Shown here piece by piece: positions 21,876-32,780 of a stretch of 64,000 nucleotides of DNA. Numbering within the stretch: position 1 is the stretch's first letter; each line of letters opens with the position of its first letter. Under the pieces are notes generated by a model. It did not search any database. It was given only the letters and a program-made list of their open reading frames with translations, and was not told the origin of the DNA. The stretch is from Pseudomaricurvus alkylphenolicus. Its GTDB lineage: Bacteria; Pseudomonadota; Gammaproteobacteria; Pseudomonadales; Cellvibrionaceae. The stretch covers positions 868,001 to 932,000 of the forward strand of contig NZ_JAAQPI010000001.1 in assembly GCF_011683955.1 (NCBI RefSeq), read 5' to 3'. The position numbers and the translations under genes are program-made.

Positions 21876-22694
21876 TTACTGCGAGAGACAGCGCTCGCAG
21901 GCACCACCAACTTCGATGACGCGCTCACGCACGGACGTCCACATCACGCCCCCAATACGTTCGTCCATCGGCAAGGCCTGCAAAGCGATATAGTTATGTT
22001 TATTCAGTTTGTGATACCAATACTCAGCCAGTAGCACGTTGGCTGAGCCGGTGGCCATGTCTTCATCCATTCCATATTGCGGTGCGAAATATCGAAGCTC
22101 GTAATCGTAACGCTCTTGGCTGGATCTATTCGTGGCAATAATAGCCCGCTGTGTATGTTTGCAGATCACCTCCAATTTAACTGGCAGTTGACGTACAGGT
22201 TGCTCAAACTCCAGGATCATGTATCCATTGGCGCCGCCGGAGTAAGCCGCCGCTATTGGGGTCGCAGCAAAACAGTCAGTCGCCCAGGATGCTACTTTGG
22301 CAGCCTCCATTATTGGACGCTCTACTGAAAAGCCGAATCCGTAGGGTCTTCGAAAGATGGAAGCAGTGAGGCTTTCAGCAAGCAACGGCGGAGCCAGTTG
22401 GTTGAGAGTGCCTTCGAGCAGAACACAGGCAGACGCCACCAAACCGGATCCACAAAAGGACACCTCGCGACCATTTTGATACCAACGGGTTTTAGCTCCG
22501 GTCTCATCAACAGAACCAATATATGCGAGAGTCCTGGGATTACCCAGGACGTCGCTGCCCTTCGAATACTCACTCAACTGCTGCCATTGAGCGTCGGTGG
22601 GCCATGAATCGAGTTCCAGCACTTCGACCCGATTACCGCAATAATTCTGATCGTGAAAGACCTTGTAGGTAGCTCGGCTGCGTATCAAAGTCAA
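21876..22694 (-). CDS. PhzF-family isomerase-like protein, coupled to egtD
   Basis: The 272-residue protein has the PhzF (diaminopimelate-epimerase-like) fold: YCGNRVEVLELD near the start, the conserved Glu42 in LSEYSKGSDV, SFCGSGLVASACVL, and FAPQYGMDEDMATGSAN near residue 215. Relatives isomerise phenazine precursors or amino-acid derivatives; many are uncharacterised. It begins at TTG 22694, and that TTGA overlaps the TGA stop of egtD, giving tight coupling. No ATG start is possible before the conserved N-terminal segment. Position as third gene after egtB and egtD suggests a role in ergothioneine or related thiol-histidine metabolism, which is inference. Confidence 0.82.
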   Translation of the reverse strand: MTLIRSRATYKVFHDQNYCGNRVEVLELDSWPTDAQWQQLSEYSKGSDVLGNPRTLAYIGSVDETGAKTRWYQNGREVSFCGSGLVASACVLLEGTLNQLAPPLLAESLTASIFRRPYGFGFSVERPIMEAAKVASWATDCFAATPIAAAYSGGANGYMILEFEQPVRQLPVKLEVICKHTQRAIIATNRSSQERYDYELRYFAPQYGMDEDMATGSANVLLAEYWYHKLNKHNYIALQALPMDERIGGVMWTSVRERVIEVGGACERCLSQ

Positions 22695-23650
22695 TCTTCA
22701 CTCGCCCGCAAAAGAAAAACGGTAAATAACTGCTCGCCCGCCACCCATTTTCTAACGCTGCGCCAGCCTGCACCCTGGGCCAGCTGAAGGAACTGCTCCG
22801 GCGTATACTTGTGGGAGTTCTCGGTATGAATACTCTCACCGGAGTCAAAGTAAAAACGTTGATCTCCAATAGAGACGGTCTGAGCCTTCTGGCTGATCAG
22901 GTGCATTTCGATACGCCCTTCGGTTGGGTTATAGAAAGCGTAATGATCGAAATACTCGGTATCAAAATCGGCATCCAGTTCACGATTGATATGGGTAAGA
23001 ATATTCAGGTTAAACTTCCTCGTCACGCCTTCGCTGTCGTTATAGGCCTTGTGAAGCATATTGGCGGATTTTTTGGTGTCGACACCAATCAATAGCAGCG
23101 CCCCCGGGCCGAGTGAAGATCGCACCCGTTGCAGAAAGGTCTGAGCAAACTGCGGCGAGAAGTTGCCGATGGTGGAGCCCGGAAAAAACGCCATGCGTTT
23201 GGCGCCGTTCAGGCCCGGCATATTCAGCTCAGCGGTAAAATCAGCCGCCATGGGTTCCACCGTGACTTTTGGGAATTCCTGGCGTAAGTCATCGGCGGCG
23301 TTTTCCAGGTGCTCGCCCGCAATATCGATGGGAATAAAGCGCTCGATTTGCGACATATGACGCAACAAGAGCCGGATCTTGACTAGGGAGCCGGCTCCGT
23401 ATTCCACCACATCCAGAGGCTCTGGCACGATGTGAGAAAGGTCCTGCGCAACTGAGGGCAGCATCGCCAACTCGGTACGGTAGGGATAATACTCCTCCAG
23501 CTCGCAAATCTGATCGAATAACGCTGAGCCATAGGTGTCATAGAAATACTTGGCCGGAAGCGATTTCTGGCTTTGCTTAAGACCACTGACAACATCCTGC
23601 TCGAATGCCGAGCGCGCGCGGGAGGTGTCCGATACCACGTTTTGTTGCAT
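22691..23650 (-). CDS. egtD: L-histidine N-alpha-methyltransferase EgtD
   Basis: The 319-residue protein is an EgtD-type SAM methyltransferase that trimethylates histidine to hercynine, the first step of ergothioneine synthesis. Visible motifs: LPAKYFYDTYGSALFDQICELEEYY, DVVEYGAGSLVKIR for SAM binding, FFPGSTIGNF, LIGVDTKK and a C-terminal FTVFLLR. ATG 23650 is chosen since AAAGGA lies 7 bases upstream; the longer frame to 23668 overlaps egtB. It begins one base after the egtB stop, so the two are co-translated, and its TGA overlaps the TTG of the PhzF-like gene. Confidence 0.93.
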   Translation of the reverse strand: MQQNVVSDTSRARSAFEQDVVSGLKQSQKSLPAKYFYDTYGSALFDQICELEEYYPYRTELAMLPSVAQDLSHIVPEPLDVVEYGAGSLVKIRLLLRHMSQIERFIPIDIAGEHLENAADDLRQEFPKVTVEPMAADFTAELNMPGLNGAKRMAFFPGSTIGNFSPQFAQTFLQRVRSSLGPGALLLIGVDTKKSANMLHKAYNDSEGVTRKFNLNILTHINRELDADFDTEYFDHYAFYNPTEGRIEMHLISQKAQTVSIGDQRFYFDSGESIHTENSHKYTPEQFLQLAQGAGWRSVRKWVAGEQLFTVFLLRASED

Positions 23651-23651
23651 G

Positions 23652-24887
23652 TTAACTATCCTTTGCAAGCCGCAGGCCCGTGAATTGCCAACGCTGGTGA
23701 GGGTAAAAGAAATTGCGATAACTGGGCCGCATCTGCTCGATAGGCGTCACACAGGAACCGCCCCGCAGGACATACTGTCCCGACATAAATTTGCCGTTGT
23801 ATTCGCCCACCGCCCCTGGCGCGGGGCGAAAACCCGGGTAGGCCATATAGGGGCTTGCCGTCCACTCCCAGACATCGCCATAGAGTTGCTGAATGCCCGA
23901 CGCCTGGGCGGCTTGAGGCAGCCAATGCTTGTTCTCCATAAAATTGCCTTCTATGGCATGCTGCCTGGCGACCACCTCCCATTCCTGCTCGGTAGGCAGG
24001 CGGGCGCCGGCCCAGCGGGCAAAGGCATCAGCCTCAAAATAGCTGATGTGGCTAACCGCCCGATCCGACTCGACGGGCTGGCAGCCGTAATGGGAAAACT
24101 GAACCCAATCACCGTCGATTTGTTGCCAGTACAGAGGCGCGCTCCAACCCTCCTGCTGGCACCGGGCCCATCCGTCAGAGAGCCACAGAGTCGGCTCTGT
24201 GTAGCCACCATCTTCAATAAATTCGAGCCATTCCTGATTGGTGACCGGACGACGAGCCAGGGAAAAGGCCCTCAAAAAGGCCTGGTGGCGAGGCCCCTCA
24301 CAGTCAAAGGCAAAACCCTTGTCTGTGGCACCGATCGAAAACAGACCTTCGTCGAAGGGTAAGAATCTCTGTTCCCCTGTCGAGAATGTGGGTATGGCAC
24401 TTGGTTGTTCAACCATAGCCGGAACCATGGGATTGAGAGACAGCGCGTGGAGGATATCCGTCAACAGCAGCTCCTGGTGCTGCATCTCGTGGTGCAGTCC
24501 GACAGTGATGGTACCTGTCACACCATGCTCTCTGGCAAAACCACGGTCCAGGCGCTCCAGCACCGAGGCATTCACCGCTTCGCGGTATTCCAGCACTCGT
24601 TGTAGGCTGGGGCGAGACAGCATGCCACGCTCAGGGCGGGGATGGCGCTCGCCGATGCTATTGTAGTAGGAGTTAAACAGGAAATTGAAATGAGGATCGA
24701 ACTCTGTGTATTCGGGATCGAACCGCTTAAGGACGAACTGCTCAAAGAACCAGGTGGTATGGGCCAGATGCCATTTGGCGGGGCTGGCATCCTCCATGGA
24801 CTGCACCACCATGTCTTCGGCGTCCAACCCCTGTATCAGGTCCAGGCTGGCTTCCCGGCGCCTCGCAAACGTTTCCGCAAGCGTCAT
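23652..24887 (-). CDS. egtB: Ergothioneine biosynthesis sulfoxide synthase EgtB
   Basis: The 411-residue non-haem iron enzyme joins a thiol to hercynine using oxygen. The N-terminal DinB-like domain supplies the iron ligands: His43 in HLAHTTWF, and His133 and His137 in LHHEMQHQE. The C-terminal FGE-sulfatase domain shows RRPVTNQEWLEFI, LPTEQEWEVVAR, GDVWEWTASPY and VLRGGSC. ATG 24887 has AGAGGA 7 bases upstream; the GTG two codons earlier is less likely. It is the first gene of an egtB-egtD-phzF-like operon. No egtC or egtE is seen, as usual in proteobacteria where other enzymes do the later steps. Confidence 0.93.
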   Translation of the reverse strand: MTLAETFARRREASLDLIQGLDAEDMVVQSMEDASPAKWHLAHTTWFFEQFVLKRFDPEYTEFDPHFNFLFNSYYNSIGERHPRPERGMLSRPSLQRVLEYREAVNASVLERLDRGFAREHGVTGTITVGLHHEMQHQELLLTDILHALSLNPMVPAMVEQPSAIPTFSTGEQRFLPFDEGLFSIGATDKGFAFDCEGPRHQAFLRAFSLARRPVTNQEWLEFIEDGGYTEPTLWLSDGWARCQQEGWSAPLYWQQIDGDWVQFSHYGCQPVESDRAVSHISYFEADAFARWAGARLPTEQEWEVVARQHAIEGNFMENKHWLPQAAQASGIQQLYGDVWEWTASPYMAYPGFRPAPGAVGEYNGKFMSGQYVLRGGSCVTPIEQMRPSYRNFFYPHQRWQFTGLRLAKDS

Positions 24888-25226
24888 ATCCACATCCTCT
24901 GGTGAAGACTCTGTTTTTATTCCGGCTTAATTTAAGAGAATAGTATAGATATTGCGTTTTGATGACGGCTTTCGCTATTTATGCAAAACGCCAATGTAAA
25001 AAATCAGAGCCACATAGTGGAGTGATCAGGCCTGGGGGCGTGTCTGTTTGACCGTTTGGCGTCTGGATACACATTTGCGCTTGGTCGTCATCGGCATAGC
25101 CGACAAGCCGCAGGGCGCCTTCGATTGGCAACTGTCGATATAAAAAACGCCCCGAACAAAGCCGGGGCCATAAGGGAGAGCGTTACTGGACTGCGAGACC
25201 AGCAGCGCGGAAACAGCGGAGAGCGG
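24888..25226. other. Gap between egtB and TonB receptor gene
   Basis: This 339-bp gap should hold the egtB promoter at its left end, and it contains the receptor terminator at 25142-25168. I see no convincing gene in it. Confidence 0.5.
25142..25168 (-). terminator. Rho-independent terminator of TonB receptor gene
   Basis: On the minus strand GCCCCG, an 8-base loop and CGGGGC form a GC-rich 6-bp stem followed after one base by six Ts, about 60 bases past the receptor stop codon. This is a standard intrinsic terminator. Confidence 0.85.
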
Positions 25227-27518
25227 TCAGAAATTGTAGTCCAAAGAAATACCGTAGGTGGCTGGCGGCGCGTATCCTTTTAACAGCCAACCGAATGCGG
25301 GCAGATCGTTCAGATAGGGAGTATATTCCTCTTCCGTAATGTTTTTGCCCCAGATGGATGCCCGCCATTGATCATCCGCAGACCCGATGGAGATCCTGGC
25401 ATTAACCAACCAGTAAGCTTCCAACAAGTTACTAGGCTGGTTGTTGACTTCCAGATAGTGATCATCCCTCCAGCTGAAATCCGTTGAGAAGATCGCCGTC
25501 ATTGAATCTCCGATGGGCGCTTCGTAGCGAACCTGGCCGTTAAATGTCCATTCGGGGCTGAACGCCGGGCGATTTCCTTTCAGGCTGACCGGTCCGATGC
25601 CAGTGGCCAGGGTCAAGTCGGATTTCACTTCGTTATCCACCCACCCCATACCGGCTTTGAGATCCAGACCTTCCAGTGGACGCCAGTGCAGATCCAATTC
25701 TGCACCTATGGTTTCGATTTCTGCAGCGTTGATGGTAATAGGTACTGGCGAGCCAGGGGCATCCACATCGATGTGCCCGTCTCGGAAGTCGTAGCGGAAC
25801 ATAGCGCCGTTTAATCGAAAGGTGTCTTCCATCCAACTCGACTTAAATCCAACTTCATACGCCGTCATTTCCTCTGGTGCCAATGCCGTTAACTCATCCT
25901 GTGAGTTCGCGAAAGCAACGCTGAAACCACCACTGCGAAATCCGGTGGATACCGAGGCGTACACCATAGAATCATTGTTAGGCGTCCACTCGGCACTGAC
26001 CTTGAAGGAAACGTCCTCATCACGACGAACATTACCCCCTTCGATCAAATCCGAACTGGCGATAGCAGCGCCGATGGTTTCCGGTTTCTCTTCTCCACCG
26101 AAGTCCGTTATACCCGAACCCCCAAAGGTGCCGCCATTGAGCTCAGTCTCTTCCCAGGTAAAACGGACGCCATTAATAATACGAAAGCTCTCCGTCAACT
26201 GAAATTCAAGGTGAGCGAACGCAGCAAAGGCGTCTACCGTTTGATTATAGCGGGAGTAGTTGTTGAGCCCGTCAAAAACATTGGCGTATGCGGTAAGGTA
26301 ATCCCCATTATAATAGTCATCGTGCTCGTAGAAGAGCCCAATAATGTAGTTATAACGGTCATGGTCCAGATCTGAAGTCAGACGAAATTCCTGTGTGAAT
26401 TGTTCGAACTCCGTATACCAATACACCTCAATGGACTGAATAGAGCTATTGTCTGAATCCTCCCGCTGGTTTTGGTCAAAGTTCTCGTAGCCCGTAATGG
26501 ACGTGAGTATGGCATTATCAAATTTATGCTCGACCTTGACCAGTCCTCCAAAGGCTTCGTTGTCCACGGTAAAGCTGAGATTGTTCTGGGTGGTATAGGG
26601 GTCATCCTCCCCGGGTTGGTACTGACTGATCGGTGCTCCCGGGTTAAACAACAGATCCAATCCCCGCAGACAATTGGGGGTATTGCCTTTAACGCTCCCG
26701 TCCAGATACTCGGGACAGAACCCGCCTTCCAGCTGAGTATTGCCCAGCCCCTCGTAAGGCAACAGTTCCGATCGGTCCTTGCCGTAGTGTAACGACAACA
26801 ATATCTCTGTGTCTTCGAGATTCCAAAGCAGTTGCCCCCGCAGCCCAATTTCGTCTACCTTGCCTTCGGTGGTACCTCGAGTGGTATTTTTGTAGAAGCC
26901 CTCTTCCTGCCTGGTCATATAGCCGGAAAGGCGGCCACTGAGATTATCGGCAATTGGACCTGTTACATAGCCTTCGAAGTTCTGGGTCTGGTAGTTGCCG
27001 TAGCCGAGAGTAACGTTGCCAGAAAAAGTGTCCTCCGGTCGCCGTGTGAAAAAATTGACCGCGCCACCGGTGGTGTTGCGTCCGAACAGATCGCCCTGCG
27101 GGCCTTTTAGAACTTCTACCCTCTCTATGTCGAATAGAGTCATACCCGTTAAGAAGCCCTTACTTTGATAAACCTCATCCACATGAACCGCGACCGGCGC
27201 ATCAAGATTGGCCGTGAATTCGTTGAGTCCCAGCCCGCGGATATTAAAAAAGTTGTTGCCCAAGCCATAGTTAACCTGAACATTGGGCACATTGGCGGCG
27301 ACATTGACGACGTCACTGACATTCATCTCTTTTAACTCGTCGCCACCAAAAGCCGACATAGTAATACCCACATCCTGAACGGATTGAGCTCTTTTTTGTG
27401 CCGTAACGATAACCTCTTCGATGGAAAATGCGGACTCTTGCGCATTGATCTGCTGGGTCAAAGCGGTTACACCCAACATGGCCATAACCAGGCATTTGGG
27501 TTGTGCGGTCAGTTTCAT
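25227..27518 (-). CDS. TonB-dependent receptor linked to amidase
   Basis: The 763-residue protein has a signal peptide (MKLTAQPKCLVMAMLGVTALTQQINAQ), a TonB box (SIEEVIVTAQKR), a plug domain (NNFFNIRGLGLNE, VHVDEVYQSKG, VEVLKGPQGDLFGRNTTGG) and a C-terminal barrel ending YGISLDYNF with a final aromatic residue, as required for assembly. ATG 27518 has GAGGAGAG about 6 bases upstream; the longer open frame runs into the amidase. It lies 43 bp after the amidase gene on the same strand and is followed by a clear terminator, so both form one transcript. It probably imports the amide substrate of this gene group, which is inference from context. Confidence 0.93.
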   Translation of the reverse strand: MKLTAQPKCLVMAMLGVTALTQQINAQESAFSIEEVIVTAQKRAQSVQDVGITMSAFGGDELKEMNVSDVVNVAANVPNVQVNYGLGNNFFNIRGLGLNEFTANLDAPVAVHVDEVYQSKGFLTGMTLFDIERVEVLKGPQGDLFGRNTTGGAVNFFTRRPEDTFSGNVTLGYGNYQTQNFEGYVTGPIADNLSGRLSGYMTRQEEGFYKNTTRGTTEGKVDEIGLRGQLLWNLEDTEILLSLHYGKDRSELLPYEGLGNTQLEGGFCPEYLDGSVKGNTPNCLRGLDLLFNPGAPISQYQPGEDDPYTTQNNLSFTVDNEAFGGLVKVEHKFDNAILTSITGYENFDQNQREDSDNSSIQSIEVYWYTEFEQFTQEFRLTSDLDHDRYNYIIGLFYEHDDYYNGDYLTAYANVFDGLNNYSRYNQTVDAFAAFAHLEFQLTESFRIINGVRFTWEETELNGGTFGGSGITDFGGEEKPETIGAAIASSDLIEGGNVRRDEDVSFKVSAEWTPNNDSMVYASVSTGFRSGGFSVAFANSQDELTALAPEEMTAYEVGFKSSWMEDTFRLNGAMFRYDFRDGHIDVDAPGSPVPITINAAEIETIGAELDLHWRPLEGLDLKAGMGWVDNEVKSDLTLATGIGPVSLKGNRPAFSPEWTFNGQVRYEAPIGDSMTAIFSTDFSWRDDHYLEVNNQPSNLLEAYWLVNARISIGSADDQWRASIWGKNITEEEYTPYLNDLPAFGWLLKGYAPPATYGISLDYNF

Positions 27519-27561: not shown

Positions 27562-29076
27562 TTAGAACTGGTGCCAGTCATAATGACTTTCAAACGCATA
27601 GGCCGCGCGATACAAAGTGCTTTCGTCGTAGTGCCTGCCGACAAACATCATGCCTACCGGTAATCCCTCGCTGAGCCCACAGGGAACAGACAATGCCGGG
27701 TGTCCGGTGGCGTCCATGGCGCAGGTGTTGCCGATCATTTCGAAGGCGCGTTGAATATACTCCTCTCGAGAGGCGTCCGGCGCCGGCAAAGGGGTGGCTT
27801 TCATCGGTACGGTCGGCATCATCAGCAGGTCGTAGTCCTGCAGGTAGCTATCGTATTCGGTACGAAGCCGGCGATTAAGGTTTTGCGCCTTCGCGTAGTA
27901 GTAACCGTGATACTTCTCCAACATATACAGACCGGTAAGCATGCAGGACTTGAGAGAGTCCGACAGCTCATCAGCGCGCTCGCGCCAGTTTGCGTGAGCC
28001 TGCAACAATTGTGTGTCATAGAGTCCCTTCCAATTGAGGCCTGTACCGTTGCGCAGCATCATCTGCTCCGTCAGTCCCTCCAGGGCAATGGCCAGCCAGA
28101 CGGATTGACCGATGTTATGCCAGGGTATCGACACTTCGGTAACTATCGCCCCCAGGTCTCTTAGAGCATTGGCCGCCTTCCTGACTTTTTGATCAACGTC
28201 CGCTTCTGATTCCGGGCGATCGAACCCCTCTTTCACCAAACCAATACGCATACCTTCGACACCGCCTCTCAGCTGTTGACTGTAGGGCTGTGTTTTTACG
28301 TCGTATTGTCTTGGGTCCAGACCGTCCGCTCCTGCAATGGCCTCCAACAGCAGAGCATTGTTATAAACGTTGTTGGTAATTGGGCCCGCGTTGTCGATGG
28401 TCGCCTCGATGGGCATGATGCCCGTATAGGGAACGAGCCCCCAGGTGGGTTTCATGCCAACACATCCACACCAGGCAGATGGGATCCGAATGGAGCCTCC
28501 CTGATCGCCACCAATCGCAAACTCCAATTCGCCACTGCCGACCAAAGCACCACAGCCAGCGGACGAACCCCCGCTTGAGCGATTATGGTCGTGAGGGTTA
28601 TGAACCGGGCCCAACGCGGTGGTGTGGCTGCCCCCCGACAAACAGAAGTATTCACAGTGAGCCTTACCTGCGATTTCACCCCCGGCATTCAGAATGCGGG
28701 TAACCACCGTAGCGTCGATATTCGGCACGTGATCTGCTAGCGTGGAGGCACCATTCATCATGGGTACGCCAGCCAGGCTGATATTGTCTTTAAGGACAAT
28801 CCGCTTGCCTTCGAGAATTCCGTGGTTCTGAGTCTTCAGCGCCGTCTTTTGAAACCAGGCATTGAGAGTATTCTCCGATTCGCCGGCGGGACAAAAATCG
28901 GGGGCTTCTGACGCTGGTGCCGGAAGATTGTCCTCCAACGAGTCCAGCAGCTCATAGGCTTCTATGTTGGGCTTAATCAGCTCTCGAAATGACTCCAGAT
29001 CCTCAGGGGAGAAGGACATATTCAGGCGTTCGGCCACAGTTTTAAGCTCTTGCAGTGTCGGAACGGATACAGGCAT
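27562..29076 (-). CDS. Amidase-signature family amidase
   Basis: The 504-residue protein is an amidase-signature serine hydrolase. GKRIVLKDN gives the catalytic Lys96, NRSSGGSSAGCG is the signature, and GGDQGGSIRIPS holds the cis-Ser and nucleophilic Ser. GMKPTWGLVPYTG and ATIDNAGPIT follow as in nitrile-pathway amidases. It hydrolyses an amide to a carboxylic acid and ammonia or amine. ATG 29076 is preferred over GTG 29085, as GGAG lies 8 bases before it. The gene diverges from an acyl-CoA ligase, and its product could supply that ligase with acid. An AmiC-like amide sensor is encoded nearby. Confidence 0.9.
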   Translation of the reverse strand: MPVSVPTLQELKTVAERLNMSFSPEDLESFRELIKPNIEAYELLDSLEDNLPAPASEAPDFCPAGESENTLNAWFQKTALKTQNHGILEGKRIVLKDNISLAGVPMMNGASTLADHVPNIDATVVTRILNAGGEIAGKAHCEYFCLSGGSHTTALGPVHNPHDHNRSSGGSSAGCGALVGSGELEFAIGGDQGGSIRIPSAWCGCVGMKPTWGLVPYTGIMPIEATIDNAGPITNNVYNNALLLEAIAGADGLDPRQYDVKTQPYSQQLRGGVEGMRIGLVKEGFDRPESEADVDQKVRKAANALRDLGAIVTEVSIPWHNIGQSVWLAIALEGLTEQMMLRNGTGLNWKGLYDTQLLQAHANWRERADELSDSLKSCMLTGLYMLEKYHGYYYAKAQNLNRRLRTEYDSYLQDYDLLMMPTVPMKATPLPAPDASREEYIQRAFEMIGNTCAMDATGHPALSVPCGLSEGLPVGMMFVGRHYDESTLYRAAYAFESHYDWHQF

Positions 29077-29176
29077 TGATTTCACTCCGGATTAGCCAGT
29101 GTTTTTCCAGAAACAAGCTGGAATTGATTTCCTATTTATCTAATCACTCCTTGGATTTACCTGTCAATATTAATTA

Positions 29177-29206
29177 TTGAATATTGGATATTCTACTAAT
29201 AGAATA
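29177..29206 (+). promoter_or_regulatory. Promoter and MarR-type operator of acyl-CoA ligase
   Basis: A -35-like TTGAAT (29177-29182) and a -10-like TAGAAT (29200-29205) are 17 bp apart. The perfect palindrome TATTCTACTAATAGAATA (29189-29206) covers the spacer and the -10 element. A third half-site, GAATAT at 29179, adds a second overlapping inverted repeat. The palindrome agrees at 14 of 18 bases with the one before marR, and sits at the same distance from the -35 and -10 elements, so both are likely bound by the MarR protein encoded at 32343. It may also affect the divergent amidase. Confidence 0.72.
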
Positions 29207-29273
29207 TTTACATTGATTGCAGTCGAGTCTTGCCGCCGATCTGCTAATTCCTATTCAGAATAAGGAGTACATC

Positions 29274-30989
29274 ATGCAACATCCCAGTTATCAGCGAGGC
29301 GACGAATTGTCGGAGTTCCTGGATGTCACTATTGGCGAATACTTCGATCAGGTCGTCGATAGATTTCCCGACCGTGAAGCCATTGTTGTTCGACATCAGA
29401 ATATTCGTCGTACCTACCGGCAATATCAGCGGGACATCCACCGACTGGCGTTCGGTCTGCTATCGCTTGGCATCAAAAAGGGAGACAGAGTGGGCATCTG
29501 GGGACCCAATTCCTACGAATGGTGCCTGACACAAATGGCGACCGCCAAGATAGGCGCCATATTAGTCTGTATTAACCCCGCCTATCGTTTGCACGAGTTG
29601 GAGTTTGCGCTGAATAAAGTCCAGTGCAAAGCCATTGTCTGTGCAGATGCTTTTAAGAACAGTGACTATACCGGCATGTTGAAGTCACTGGCCCCCGAAC
29701 TGGGTCACTGTTCAGGGGGCCAATTGAAAGCTGATCGCCTGCCATCACTGGAATTGGTTATTAAAATGGGGAACCAACCGGAACCGGGGATGTTGAATTT
29801 CTGGTCGATTTGTCATGCGGGTGAGACAGACTCCTCAAAACCCGGGCAGTGGGCACATGAACTCCCTCAACACATTGATACCGGCCTGAGACTGATTGCC
29901 GATGAGCTTAGCGCCGACGACCCCATCAATATTCAGTTTACCAGCGGCACCACCGGCAAGCCCAAAGGGGCCACCTTGACCCATAAAAACATCCTCAATA
30001 ATGCCTGGTTTACCGGGCAATACCTGGGCTTTAGTGAGCAGGACAGGCTGTGTGTACCTGTGCCGCTCTATCACTGTTTTGGGCTGGTATTGAGCAGCCT
30101 CACCTGCATGGTACACGGCGCCGCTGCCGTATACCCGAACGACGCCTTTGAACCGGTGAGTGTTCTGCAAACGGTCGAAGAAGAGTCCTGTACCGCACTG
30201 CATGGGGTACCGACCATGTTTATCGCAGAGCTCGAGCTGGAGAGTTTTCGGGAGTATGACCTCAGCAGCTTGAGGACCGGTATTATGGCCGGCGCACCTT
30301 GTCCGATCGAAGTTATGAATCGGGTCATCGAGGAGATGCATATGAAGCACATCTTGATTGGCTACGGCCAGACCGAGCTGAGCCCGATCAACCACATGAC
30401 AAGACCTCAAGACCCCATCGAAAAACGTGTCGAAACGGTCGGTCAGGCCGTTCCCGGCCTGGAGGTGAAGTTGATCGACGATAGCGGCAACATCGTACCC
30501 AGAGGCGAGCGCGGAGAGGTTTGTACTCGTGGTTATTCCGTTATGCAAGGTTACTGGGGGGATGAACAAGCCACCCTTGAAACCATTGACGCACAGGGAT
30601 GGTTGCACTCTGGTGACATTGGCATCATGGACGATGAAGGCTATGTAAGCATCGTTGGGCGCAGCAAGGATCTGATTATAAGAGGTGGAGAGAATATCTA
30701 TCCTCGGGAAATAGAAGAATTTCTGCACGGTCATCCACAAGTACTGGACGTTCAGGTATTCGGCATACCGGATCAAAGGTTTGGTGAGCGCGTTTGCGCC
30801 TGGATTCAACTACAGACTGGAGCCGACGTCTCCGAACAAGACATTAAGTTATATTGCAGAGATCAGATCACACACTTCAAGATACCCGCCTTGATTCGCT
30901 TTGTGGAATCATTTCCCATGACCATTACGGGTAAAGCCCAGAAGTTTAAAATGCGCGAACTCGAAATAGAGCGGTGTTCGGCCAGCTAG
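29274..30989 (+). CDS. Acyl-CoA synthetase (AMP-forming, fatty-acyl type)
   Basis: The 571-residue ANL-family ligase has the ATP motif IQFTSGTTGKPKGATLTH near residue 219, YGQTELSP, the hinge-region GWLHSGDIGIMDDEGY and IVGRSKDLIIRGGENIYP, and a C-terminal MTITGKAQKFKMRE carrying the catalytic lysine. It joins a medium- or long-chain carboxylic acid to CoA. ATG 29274 has AAGGAG 6 bases upstream. Its promoter holds the palindrome shared with marR. In context it probably activates the acid released by the divergent amidase for beta-oxidation. It ends 13 bp from the convergent AmiC-like gene. Confidence 0.9.
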   Translation: MQHPSYQRGDELSEFLDVTIGEYFDQVVDRFPDREAIVVRHQNIRRTYRQYQRDIHRLAFGLLSLGIKKGDRVGIWGPNSYEWCLTQMATAKIGAILVCINPAYRLHELEFALNKVQCKAIVCADAFKNSDYTGMLKSLAPELGHCSGGQLKADRLPSLELVIKMGNQPEPGMLNFWSICHAGETDSSKPGQWAHELPQHIDTGLRLIADELSADDPINIQFTSGTTGKPKGATLTHKNILNNAWFTGQYLGFSEQDRLCVPVPLYHCFGLVLSSLTCMVHGAAAVYPNDAFEPVSVLQTVEEESCTALHGVPTMFIAELELESFREYDLSSLRTGIMAGAPCPIEVMNRVIEEMHMKHILIGYGQTELSPINHMTRPQDPIEKRVETVGQAVPGLEVKLIDDSGNIVPRGERGEVCTRGYSVMQGYWGDEQATLETIDAQGWLHSGDIGIMDDEGYVSIVGRSKDLIIRGGENIYPREIEEFLHGHPQVLDVQVFGIPDQRFGERVCAWIQLQTGADVSEQDIKLYCRDQITHFKIPALIRFVESFPMTITGKAQKFKMRELEIERCSAS

Positions 30990-31002
30990 CAGAGCAGTCA
31001 AA

Positions 31003-32085
31003 TCAGAAGGCAAAGGATTCCACATGTTCAAAAAAGAGTCCGTTTGCCTTCACAATATGCATTGCTGAAGTGGTGTGATGCCGACTCGAATAAAGTTCTC
31101 CCCGAGGCCCACTAAATGGCGTATAACCGTCGGACTTCGCTTCCATTTTGCCGGCATCCATAGAGCGAACACCTTTACTCAGCTCCGAGAGCAACATGAT
31201 ACCCTCGTAGCAGGACACGGCGAATTGGTTCAAAGCGGGAGCTTCCTGACCGAACGAAGCGTAGTAGTATTTGCAAAAGCCTCGAGCAGCTTGAGTCTCG
31301 AGATCGGCGTAATAGCTCATCGCGGAGTACATATTCTTGGTATATTCAGCACCAATGGCGTAAAGCATGTTCTCCTCGATGGCACCACAATAGCGAATGA
31401 TATCTCGATCGAGCCCTCTTTCTCCAAACTGCCGGTTAAATTGAATACTGCAATCTCCGAGCAAATTCACCACGACAACATCCGGCTGAAGATTCTCTAT
31501 ATTATCCAGATGTTCAGCATAGTCTTCTGTCGACAAGGAAACGTATTCTTCTCCAACGATTTGGTTGGCAGGATTGCGGTGCAAACAATCTTTGGCAAAA
31601 CTATTGGATACTCTCGGCCAAACATAGTCGTTACCGATAAAATACCAGCGGTGGGCATCAAAATTTTCCTCCAGCCAACCTATTATCGGCTTGACCTGAT
31701 ACTCTGGTGTATCGCCAGTGGTGTATACACAGGCGTGCGACTCTTTGCCTTCATACATGGGCGTATAAATATAGGGAATACGCCCTGCGACCACTTGCAC
31801 CAGCGCCTGGCGAACATCACTGGCGTGCATGCCAACGATGGCGTCCAGCCTATTGTTCACCAGCAGGTCACTGGCCTTGCGGGCAACTTCCAGCGGGGAA
31901 CCGCTGGAGTCCACCAAATGTAAATGAACCTCTTTGCCGAGAATCCCCTGATAGTCATTCAGCTCTGCCGCAGCCAGCTGGGCACACCGCTCGCTTGACG
32001 GCGCCCAAAGGCCCATGGGGCCACCATAGGGTATAAATAGACCGACGTTAATCTTGTTGTGTGTACGGTCTGCTAGTCTGTTCAT
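31003..32085 (-). CDS. AmiC-like amide/branched-chain amino-acid type binding protein, no signal peptide
   Basis: The 360-residue protein has the type I periplasmic-binding fold (Peripla_BP_5): NVGLFIPYGGPMGLW, ERCAQLAAAELND, VDSSGSPLEVARKASDLL, AIVGMHASDVRQAL and YVWPRVSNSFAKD. No signal peptide is visible, so it is likely cytoplasmic, like AmiC of Pseudomonas, which senses amides for the amidase operon, or like NspR-type sensors. No amiR-like antiterminator gene lies beside it; a MarR regulator does, divergently. ATG 32085 is a best guess: the frame runs to 32172, but neither start has a strong ribosome site. It probably senses the inducer of the amidase group. Confidence 0.75.
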   Translation of the reverse strand: MNRLADRTHNKINVGLFIPYGGPMGLWAPSSERCAQLAAAELNDYQGILGKEVHLHLVDSSGSPLEVARKASDLLVNNRLDAIVGMHASDVRQALVQVVAGRIPYIYTPMYEGKESHACVYTTGDTPEYQVKPIIGWLEENFDAHRWYFIGNDYVWPRVSNSFAKDCLHRNPANQIVGEEYVSLSTEDYAEHLDNIENLQPDVVVVNLLGDCSIQFNRQFGERGLDRDIIRYCGAIEENMLYAIGAEYTKNMYSAMSYYADLETQAARGFCKYYYASFGQEAPALNQFAVSCYEGIMLLSELSKGVRSMDAGKMEAKSDGYTPFSGPRGELYSSRHHTTSAMHIVKANGLFFEHVESFAF

Positions 32086-32266
32086 CTGCGATTCTGTTCT
32101 TGTGTTTATTACCTCTGGTTTTAACCAGACAGGTCTTTTATGGAAACTTACAGCTGACAAGCGTGTATCCAAATGTCATCAGGCTGGATAACAAGTCTAG
32201 CATATCTCCATCCACACGCATTCTGGACAATCCAGCCCAGCTAGCAGACATTATCGCTTTCGATAA

Positions 32267-32296
32267 TTGAAGTCTAGTTATTCCACATGTAGAATA
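32267..32296 (+). promoter_or_regulatory. Promoter and autoregulatory operator of marR
   Basis: TTGAAG (32267-32272) and TAGAAT (32290-32295) are spaced by 17 bp. The near-perfect palindrome TATTCCACATGTAGAATA (32279-32296), with one mismatched pair, overlaps the -10 element 46 bp before the marR ATG. The same layout recurs at the acyl-CoA ligase promoter, which supports binding by the MarR protein and self-repression. Confidence 0.72.
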
Positions 32297-32342
32297 GTTT
32301 CTTACTTAAAAATTTCCATCTCCCGAAAGAAAGCGTAGCAAC

Positions 32343-32780
32343 ATGTCACAGCCCGGAACATCCAGCCTGGCCAAATTGATTTTTGAGGCCGAGCATTACG
32401 TCAACAAGCAGTTAGACGCTTTTTTGAAATCACAGGATCGGAAAATCACGATCGAAAGCTGGCTCGCAATGGATACATTGAGCAATGATCAAGGCAAGTC
32501 GATGAAGGAGCTGTGCGACAACCTGCACATCAACGACTCCACGCTGACCAAGCTTATCGATAAGATGGTAAAGAATGCCCTGGTGTATCGTCGCCCAGAC
32601 CCAAAAGATCGCCGCAAGGTGTTGGTGTATCTTTCCGCCAGAGGCAAGAAGCTGCACGAGCGATTGAGCGCCGGTGTTGACGCCTGTTATAACGATTTGT
32701 TCATTGATTACAGCACTGAAGATGCCCACATGCTTAAGACTCTATTGTCGGACTTTGTGGATCGAAGTCGAATTAGATAG
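32343..32780 (+). CDS. MarR-family transcriptional regulator
   Basis: The 145-residue protein is a MarR winged-helix dimer: SMKELCDNLHINDSTLTKLIDKMVKNALVYRR is the recognition helix region near residues 55-86, and RRPDPKDRRKVLVYLSARG is the wing with the conserved DxRxx motif. MarR proteins usually repress and release DNA on binding an aromatic or acyl ligand, often an acyl-CoA. The gene sits next to the amide-utilisation group, and matching palindromes lie over its own promoter and the acyl-CoA ligase promoter. The ribosome site is weak. Confidence 0.9.
   Translation: MSQPGTSSLAKLIFEAEHYVNKQLDAFLKSQDRKITIESWLAMDTLSNDQGKSMKELCDNLHINDSTLTKLIDKMVKNALVYRRPDPKDRRKVLVYLSARGKKLHERLSAGVDACYNDLFIDYSTEDAHMLKTLLSDFVDRSRIR

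Follow-up and report, generated by a model that had tools for sequence, protein, structure and literature searches.

The window analysed here is a stretch of 64,000 nucleotides from the genome of Pseudomaricurvus alkylphenolicus (GCF_011683955.1, contig NZ_JAAQPI010000001.1, positions 868,001 to 932,000). It holds a cassette of five genes, encoding a TonB-dependent receptor, an amidase, an acyl-CoA ligase, an AmiC-like protein and a MarR-family regulator, together with two near-identical palindromes, O1 and O2, which, judged from their sequence and setting, are very probably the operators through which the MarR protein controls a local regulon. The elements of the cassette are as follows, in window positions.

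25227–27518, minus strand: TonB-dependent outer-membrane receptor, by family match.
27562–29076, minus strand: amidase-signature enzyme of the NF005565/PRK07235 type (PF01425), with Lys96, Ser171/Ser172 and Ser195 present.
29162–29167, minus strand: TTGACA, which may be the −35 of the promoter for the amidase and TonB receptor genes and is separated from the edge of O1 by 21 bp.
29177–29205, plus strand: candidate ligase promoter TTGAAT-N17-TAGAAT, found by promoter scan (TTGAAT at 29177–29182).
29189–29206, plus strand: candidate operator O1, TATTCTACTAATAGAATA, overlapping the ligase −10 between the divergent amidase and ligase genes; counterparts in the Shewanella loci L011, L037 and L038.
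29274–30989, plus strand: acyl-CoA ligase of the NF009233/PRK12583 type (836.7 bits, cut-off 832).
31003–32085, minus strand: AmiC/UrtA-like protein (Peripla_BP_6/5, PF13458/PF13433), no signal peptide.
32267–32295, plus strand: candidate marR promoter TTGAAG-N17-TAGAAT, found by promoter scan (TTGAAG at 32267–32272).
32279–32296, plus strand: candidate operator O2, TATTCCACATGTAGAATA, overlapping the marR −10 in the stretch from which the AmiC-like gene and marR diverge; counterparts in L011, L037 and L038.
32343–32780, plus strand: MarR-family regulator of 145 amino acids (PF01047, 49 bits, cut-off 24.6).

The original prediction had placed two near-identical palindromes at 29189 and 32279 and had linked the ligase and marR through them. 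Both points were borne out: the sites lie at these positions, are identical at 14 of 18 bases, and each stands ahead of one of the two genes, over a TAGAAT −10. O1 and O2 each pair with themselves at 8 of 9 positions, and the seven outer pairs of O1 all match. The palindrome is a more distinctive feature than the promoter hexamers: allowing at most one mismatch, it occurs at 5 places in the window against 1.33 expected, a count reached in 1 of 100 shuffles. The genome search for TATTC-N8-GAATA that had been proposed as a check returned 8 exact places in 8.88 Mb, two of them being O1 and O2, so the palindrome is not common; the reversed-pattern control gave none, and five of the six places outside the cassette are contained in stop-to-stop frames whose length is at least 150 codons. 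An extended form, TATTCYASWNNNAGAATA, which was composed after the sites had been seen, fits just O1 and O2 among these 8 places. A search for shared palindrome pairs in 14 loci ranked O1/O2 as the top pair in the window, with a score of 30 versus a maximum of 26 in 30 shuffles. Their counterparts were also top in the three Shewanella loci, where the scores of 27, 26 and 27 are not decisive against a shuffle maximum of 26. In the ten other loci a single comparison exceeded the shuffles (L022, 25 vs 23), with an unrelated sequence.

A scan of genome contigs found four loci, two of them close, in Shewanella hanedai (L011, 46%) and in an alphaproteobacterial metagenome-assembled genome (L012, 41%). 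All five genes recur in L011, with identities of 39% for MarR, 46% for the AmiC-like protein, 66% for the TonB receptor, 62% for the amidase and 54% for the ligase. The AmiC-like gene (E 1e-50 or better) was detected in 3 of 129 Shewanella genomes, S. hanedai included, and the five genes with both operators are present in all three Shewanella cassettes (L011, L037 and L038), across which identity is 38–39% for MarR and 65–66% for the receptor. The sites ahead of the ligase read TATTCTACTTTGAGAATA in two cassettes and TATTCTACTTTCAGAATA in one, and those ahead of marR TATTCCAGATGTAGAATA in two and TATTCCAGATATAGAATA in one. When the window was aligned with the Shewanella loci, O2 was the longest conserved block of the marR stretch, and the amidase-ligase stretch was so diverged that MAFFT failed to align the O1 sites. 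The plain palindrome is not rare in S. hanedai (13 places vs 9 for the control), and the extended form fits just the two cassette sites out of these 13.

The window MarR carries NDSTLTK and RRPDPKDRRK, segments that we take, from knowledge of the family, to be the recognition helix and the wing. Among 33 aligned MarR proteins, NDSTLTK together with YRRPxPKDRRK occurs in only four, those of the window and the three Shewanella cassettes, which are the four whose loci contain TATTC-N8-GAATA. The best operator-motif score is 26–28 in these loci and does not exceed 14.4 in any of the remaining 29. Overall identity to the window MarR does not follow this division, being 0.38–0.39 for Shewanella versus 0.40–0.41 for L021, L056 and L058, which are without this form of the site. 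These results bear on the explanation that O1 and O2 belong to another regulator and are present by chance or shared ancestry. In its favour, promoter-like matches in the window are at chance level (4 vs 3.9 expected in shuffles, so that the hexamers alone are not significant), and the looser TATTY-N8-RAATA has 33 genome places vs 13 for its control, so the loose arms on their own are unspecific. However, the exact form is rare, and the sites, the gene set and the recognition helix are conserved jointly; we therefore regard this explanation as highly improbable.

The domain of the AmiC-like protein is preceded by about 11 residues, which leaves no room for a signal peptide, and the 29 extra codons reached from an upstream TTG are non-hydrophobic (by eye), in agreement with the sensor lacking a signal peptide that had been predicted originally. 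Its solved relatives are, in order, 8tg1, urea-binding proteins and AmiC 1pea (phmmer 4.2e-17); a structure prediction from a three-row alignment had a mean predicted local distance difference test score of 51.6. Among solved structures, the amidase is matched best by 3a1k/3a1i (6.3e-143), presumably the amidase of Rhodococcus sp. N-771. In each of the seven aligned amidases the catalytic Lys is present, as are the serines of GGSS and the serine of GxDQ(G/A)GS; the surrounding motifs vary. The amidase and TonB receptor genes lie on the same strand with a gap of 43 bp and appear to be co-transcribed, and the solved relatives of the receptor are siderophore and colicin receptors, matched mostly across the plug region. 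Next to the receptor gene, at 21876–24893 of the window, are two ergothioneine genes, egtB and egtD, accompanied by a PhzF-like gene.

To place the regulator in a wider setting, we fetched 25 loci by MarR query, chosen by score and organism (7 + 2 + 10, the ten taken from 14 places outside the window's genome, + 6). They cover alpha-, beta- and gammaproteobacteria and Actinomycetota, and several are close kin. MarR is repeatedly paired with an AmiC-like protein that has no signal peptide: the two genes adjoin in 24 of the 25 loci, 20 times divergently, three times tail to tail (L024, L066 and L067) and once in tandem (L026). Some of the pairs belong to clusters for nitrile hydratase or amides (Rhodococcus, Agrobacterium and Aminobacter pBAM1). 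The annotation lists a nitrile hydratase for L024, L067 and L070 and an aldoxime dehydratase for L070; Pfam recognises the latter enzyme in L012 as well. When L012, L015, L016 and L017 are added, 29 wider loci have a MarR match; the link of the pair to amides is strong in about half of them, and the rest mostly show ATP-binding cassette (ABC) transporters. Where such a transporter comes with a binding protein of its own, just 21–27% similar to the AmiC-like protein, the latter probably does not serve the transporter in that role. The recurrent pairing, in some cases within nitrile hydratase or amide clusters, therefore suggests that the AmiC-like protein is likely an amide sensor. In one of these loci, from Rhodococcus sp. 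M8-35 (L067, 8417–10592), an IS481-type element interrupts the AmiC-like gene beside nitrile hydratase.

MarR regulators of the FerR/CouR/BadR type sense acyl-CoA. By analogy with them, the window MarR might itself sense acyl-CoA made by the ligase and leave the AmiC-like protein a different job, and the common operator of ligase and marR in the window and the three Shewanella cassettes is consistent with such a circuit. However, a ligase match was found in just 3 of the 23 wider MarR/AmiC-like loci tested (L023, L024 and L054), and the pair is kept nonetheless, which makes this alternative distinctly unlikely.

NhlC/NhlD and NhhC/NhhD of Rhodococcus rhodochrous J1 are AmiC-like and MarR-like regulators of amide-induced nitrile and amide genes, and to our knowledge the MarR/AmiC-like pair is known mainly from nitrile hydratase producers. 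The AmiC protein of Pseudomonas aeruginosa is a cytoplasmic amide sensor in the amidase operon, and its partner is the antiterminator AmiR. The window protein resembles this AmiC (1pea) in its substrate-binding-protein family, in a relationship detected by phmmer and in having no signal peptide; it differs in being nearer to 8tg1 and the urea-binding proteins and in having MarR as its partner, and no AmiR-type protein was found among the ten neighbour proteins scanned. By analogy, the cassette may work like a switch of the NhlC/NhlD type, although it is not to be filed as a nitrile hydratase cluster. On pNit of R. rhodochrous BAA-870 (L066) a homologous pair is accompanied by an aliphatic amidase and by genes for cobalt transport, and in Rhodococcus M8-35 another lies beside nitrile hydratase. 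In contrast, the window has a TonB receptor and an acyl-CoA ligase, with no nitrile hydratase among the neighbours scanned, and its pair is divergent rather than tail to tail as in Rhodococcus. The Rhodococcus loci also differ in their DNA: the gammaproteobacterial operator form was not found in L066–L068, nor was the wider form described below in L066 and L068. A PF02979 search of the window's genome gave no nitrile hydratase match, as was also the case for 14 control genomes.

According to PMC6941271, the genes for nitrile hydratase, amidases and regulators are clustered on the BAA-870 plasmid. Plasmid pBAM1 of Aminobacter MSH1 (L054) holds an AmiC-like protein, MarR, an acyl-CoA synthetase and one amidase together, the amidase being 42% identical to that of the window; it differs in having no TonB receptor match in the stretch, no such operator and a ligase just 28% identical. 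The pBAM1 amidase BbdA hydrolyses 2,6-dichlorobenzamide (BAM) to the acid (PMC8460812, PMC8235418), in passages that are silent on the regulators considered here. In the literature searched, whose coverage excludes most subscription journals, no description of an operator for the MarR/AmiC-like pair was found. A separate aldoxime/nitrile pathway exists in the genome of the window, where an aldoxime dehydratase lies beside a nitrilase-type enzyme and an AraC-type regulator (contig C2, 156524–157414; L019, 7351–10632). A link between the cassette and this cluster was considered and rejected, given its AraC-type regulator and a TATTC-N8-GAATA place about 21 kb off that fails the extended motif.

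Taken together, we consider it fairly likely that the cassette is a local amide-utilisation regulon, built from MarR on O1 and O2, an AmiC-like amide sensor, TonB-dependent uptake, amidase and ligase. In this scheme, MarR dimers would cover the −10 at O2 and at O1 and repress marR (autoregulation) and the ligase, and via O1 MarR would also control the divergent amidase-TonB operon. The TonB receptor would bring the amide in, and the AmiC-like protein, acting as sensor or antirepressor partner, would bind it in the cytoplasm and relieve MarR. The amidase would then release acid and ammonia, and the ligase would convert the acid to acyl-CoA, which would enter acyl-CoA metabolism. The substrate is probably a primary amide, as judged from the relatives of the amidase, and our guess is that a bulky amide would account for the TonB receptor. 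A single amide regulon under MarR had been proposed before, and the conserved sites of the three five-gene Shewanella cassettes, with their identical helix, support it; the likely sensor of the ligand is the AmiC-like protein rather than MarR alone. The amide substrate was likewise retained, although some relatives suggest primary amides of the kind handled by nitrile and amide pathways and not the fatty or N-acyl amides first suggested.

Several observations weigh against the regulon as described, and part of them come from the promoters. The two hexamers TTGAAT and TTGAAG do start 12 bases ahead of the palindrome with 17 bp to TAGAAT, as had been claimed. The shared −35, however, lends no support: besides the chance-level count of promoter-like matches, the −35 hexamers of the ligase and marR promoters are unconserved in the Shewanella cassettes (by eye). 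The right arm of the operator retains TAGAAT, GAGAAT or CAGAAT across the four cassettes. On the amidase strand, TTGACA is found in all four with a gap of 21 bp to the edge of O1. TATACG follows 16 bp beyond it in the three Shewanella cassettes, and the window is without a good −10 there (by eye). The amidase-TonB promoter is thus probably a separate one. If TTGACA is taken as the amidase −35, the centre of O1, which is 121.5 bp away from the start of the amidase gene, would be near −66, a location that does not fit simple blocking of RNA polymerase; control there may therefore differ from that at the ligase and marR. A variant, compatible with the sensor part of the scheme, is that MarR and the AmiC-like protein activate the amidase-TonB promoter from O1 and repress only the ligase and marR. 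The exact 21-bp spacing in 4 of 4 cassettes speaks for it, and in Rhodococcus the NhhC/NhhD pair is needed for amide-dependent expression. On the other side, several sites of the wider loci overlap TTGAAA with a −10-like hexamer 16–17 bp on, which suggests repression (by eye; a scripted search gave no strong pair for most). We consider activation unlikely. The intergenic stretch between the AmiC-like gene and marR also contains two further short palindromes, at 32114–32129 and 32250–32267, the latter abutting the marR −35.

The remaining points on that side concern conservation. Being 81–87% identical, the three Shewanella cassettes amount to about one independent witness. L069 has this type of MarR without an AmiC-like neighbour, and L013, L014 and L039 have the AmiC-like gene without a MarR match in the stretch. 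The distances of MarR and AmiC-like proteins are correlated (Mantel r 0.84, 0 of 2000 permutations; 31 loci, with L067 and L069 left out), which speaks for the regulon, but in a test that ignores shared ancestry. An amidase of the window type (42–59% identity) occurs in just 12 of the 29 wider loci (L016, L024, L025, L026, L054, L055, L056, L057, L059, L065, L069 and L070), with weak or partial matches in L012, L068 and L071; the fetched stretches of the other 14 gave no amidase match, L066 with its annotated aliphatic amidase among them.

For the operator beyond the gammaproteobacterial cassettes there is evidence on both sides. In the 29 other loci, the best match to the gamma-derived motif fell in a module promoter in 11, vs 4–9 in 12 permuted controls (1.6 expected by length), which is a weak excess. 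These matches suggested a wider consensus, TATTTTACTTTTCAAATA, which, when 4 mismatches are allowed, matches the 453 kb of loci at 23 places vs 0–6 for 10 permuted controls; three of the places correspond to gamma O1 sites, 14 fall at the module promoters of loci other than these, and 6 are elsewhere. Of 32 target promoter regions, 15 contain it (13 of 26 loci), whereas 300 shuffled consensuses reached at most 10 (mean 0.39), but it had been written with the matches of L012, L021, L055, L057, L059 and L065 in view; once these six are excluded, 7 of 20 loci have it, and rhizobial kin make up four of the seven (L015, L017, L022 and L023). The 26 loci are those of the 29 where the target start could be set, several only approximately, and the L059 site shared by two divergent amidases was counted twice. 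At the same threshold the consensus is absent from the target promoters of L024, L025, L026, L054, L058, L061–L064, L066, L068, L069 and L070, with 5 mismatches in L025 and L061–L064. The site centre lies 90–145 bp ahead of the start codon in 11 of the 15 regions (range 58–235), near the distance between O1 and the amidase start. The TATTY-N8-RAATA arms are common to gamma and wider sites, and positions 5/14 are C:G in the gamma cassettes and T:A elsewhere. Two single loci may be recorded here. L059 (5939–6069) has one related site between its two divergent amidases and an identical 18-mer ahead of an ABC binding protein. In L021 (7539–9408), on a Klebsiella pneumoniae plasmid, the MarR/AmiC-like pair occurs together with an ABC transporter, and the related site there is 1 mismatch off the consensus, which was written with this locus in view.

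The MarR gene (E 1e-15) was found in 1 of 58 genomes searched and the AmiC-like gene (E 1e-60) in 1 of 390 genomes of the order, in both cases the window's own; in the class, the latter (E 1e-50) was found in 2 of 369. Horizontal transfer of the cassette is likely, since MarR is present in 0 of 57 relatives and the AmiC-like gene in 0 of 389 other genomes of the order; base composition gave no clear sign of transfer. The genome of the window is large, at 8.9 Mb vs 4.0–5.7 Mb in the five other genomes of the genus searched.

We tentatively propose, as a possibility that falls somewhat short of probable, that a widespread switch exists in which MarR is the repressor and sensing is left to a cytoplasmic partner of the substrate-binding-protein family. 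Its ancestral operator plan would be TATTY-N8-RAATA, the fifth base pair would have changed together with the recognition helix, and the TonB receptor and acyl-CoA ligase would have been added on the branch leading to the window and Shewanella cassettes. From the cassette, the MarR/AmiC-like pair gains a candidate DNA operator that is searchable and testable, and an outer-membrane receptor that may import the amide is named. The pair is predicted to act as one sensor-repressor unit in loci for the degradation of amides, nitriles and pesticide residues such as BAM.

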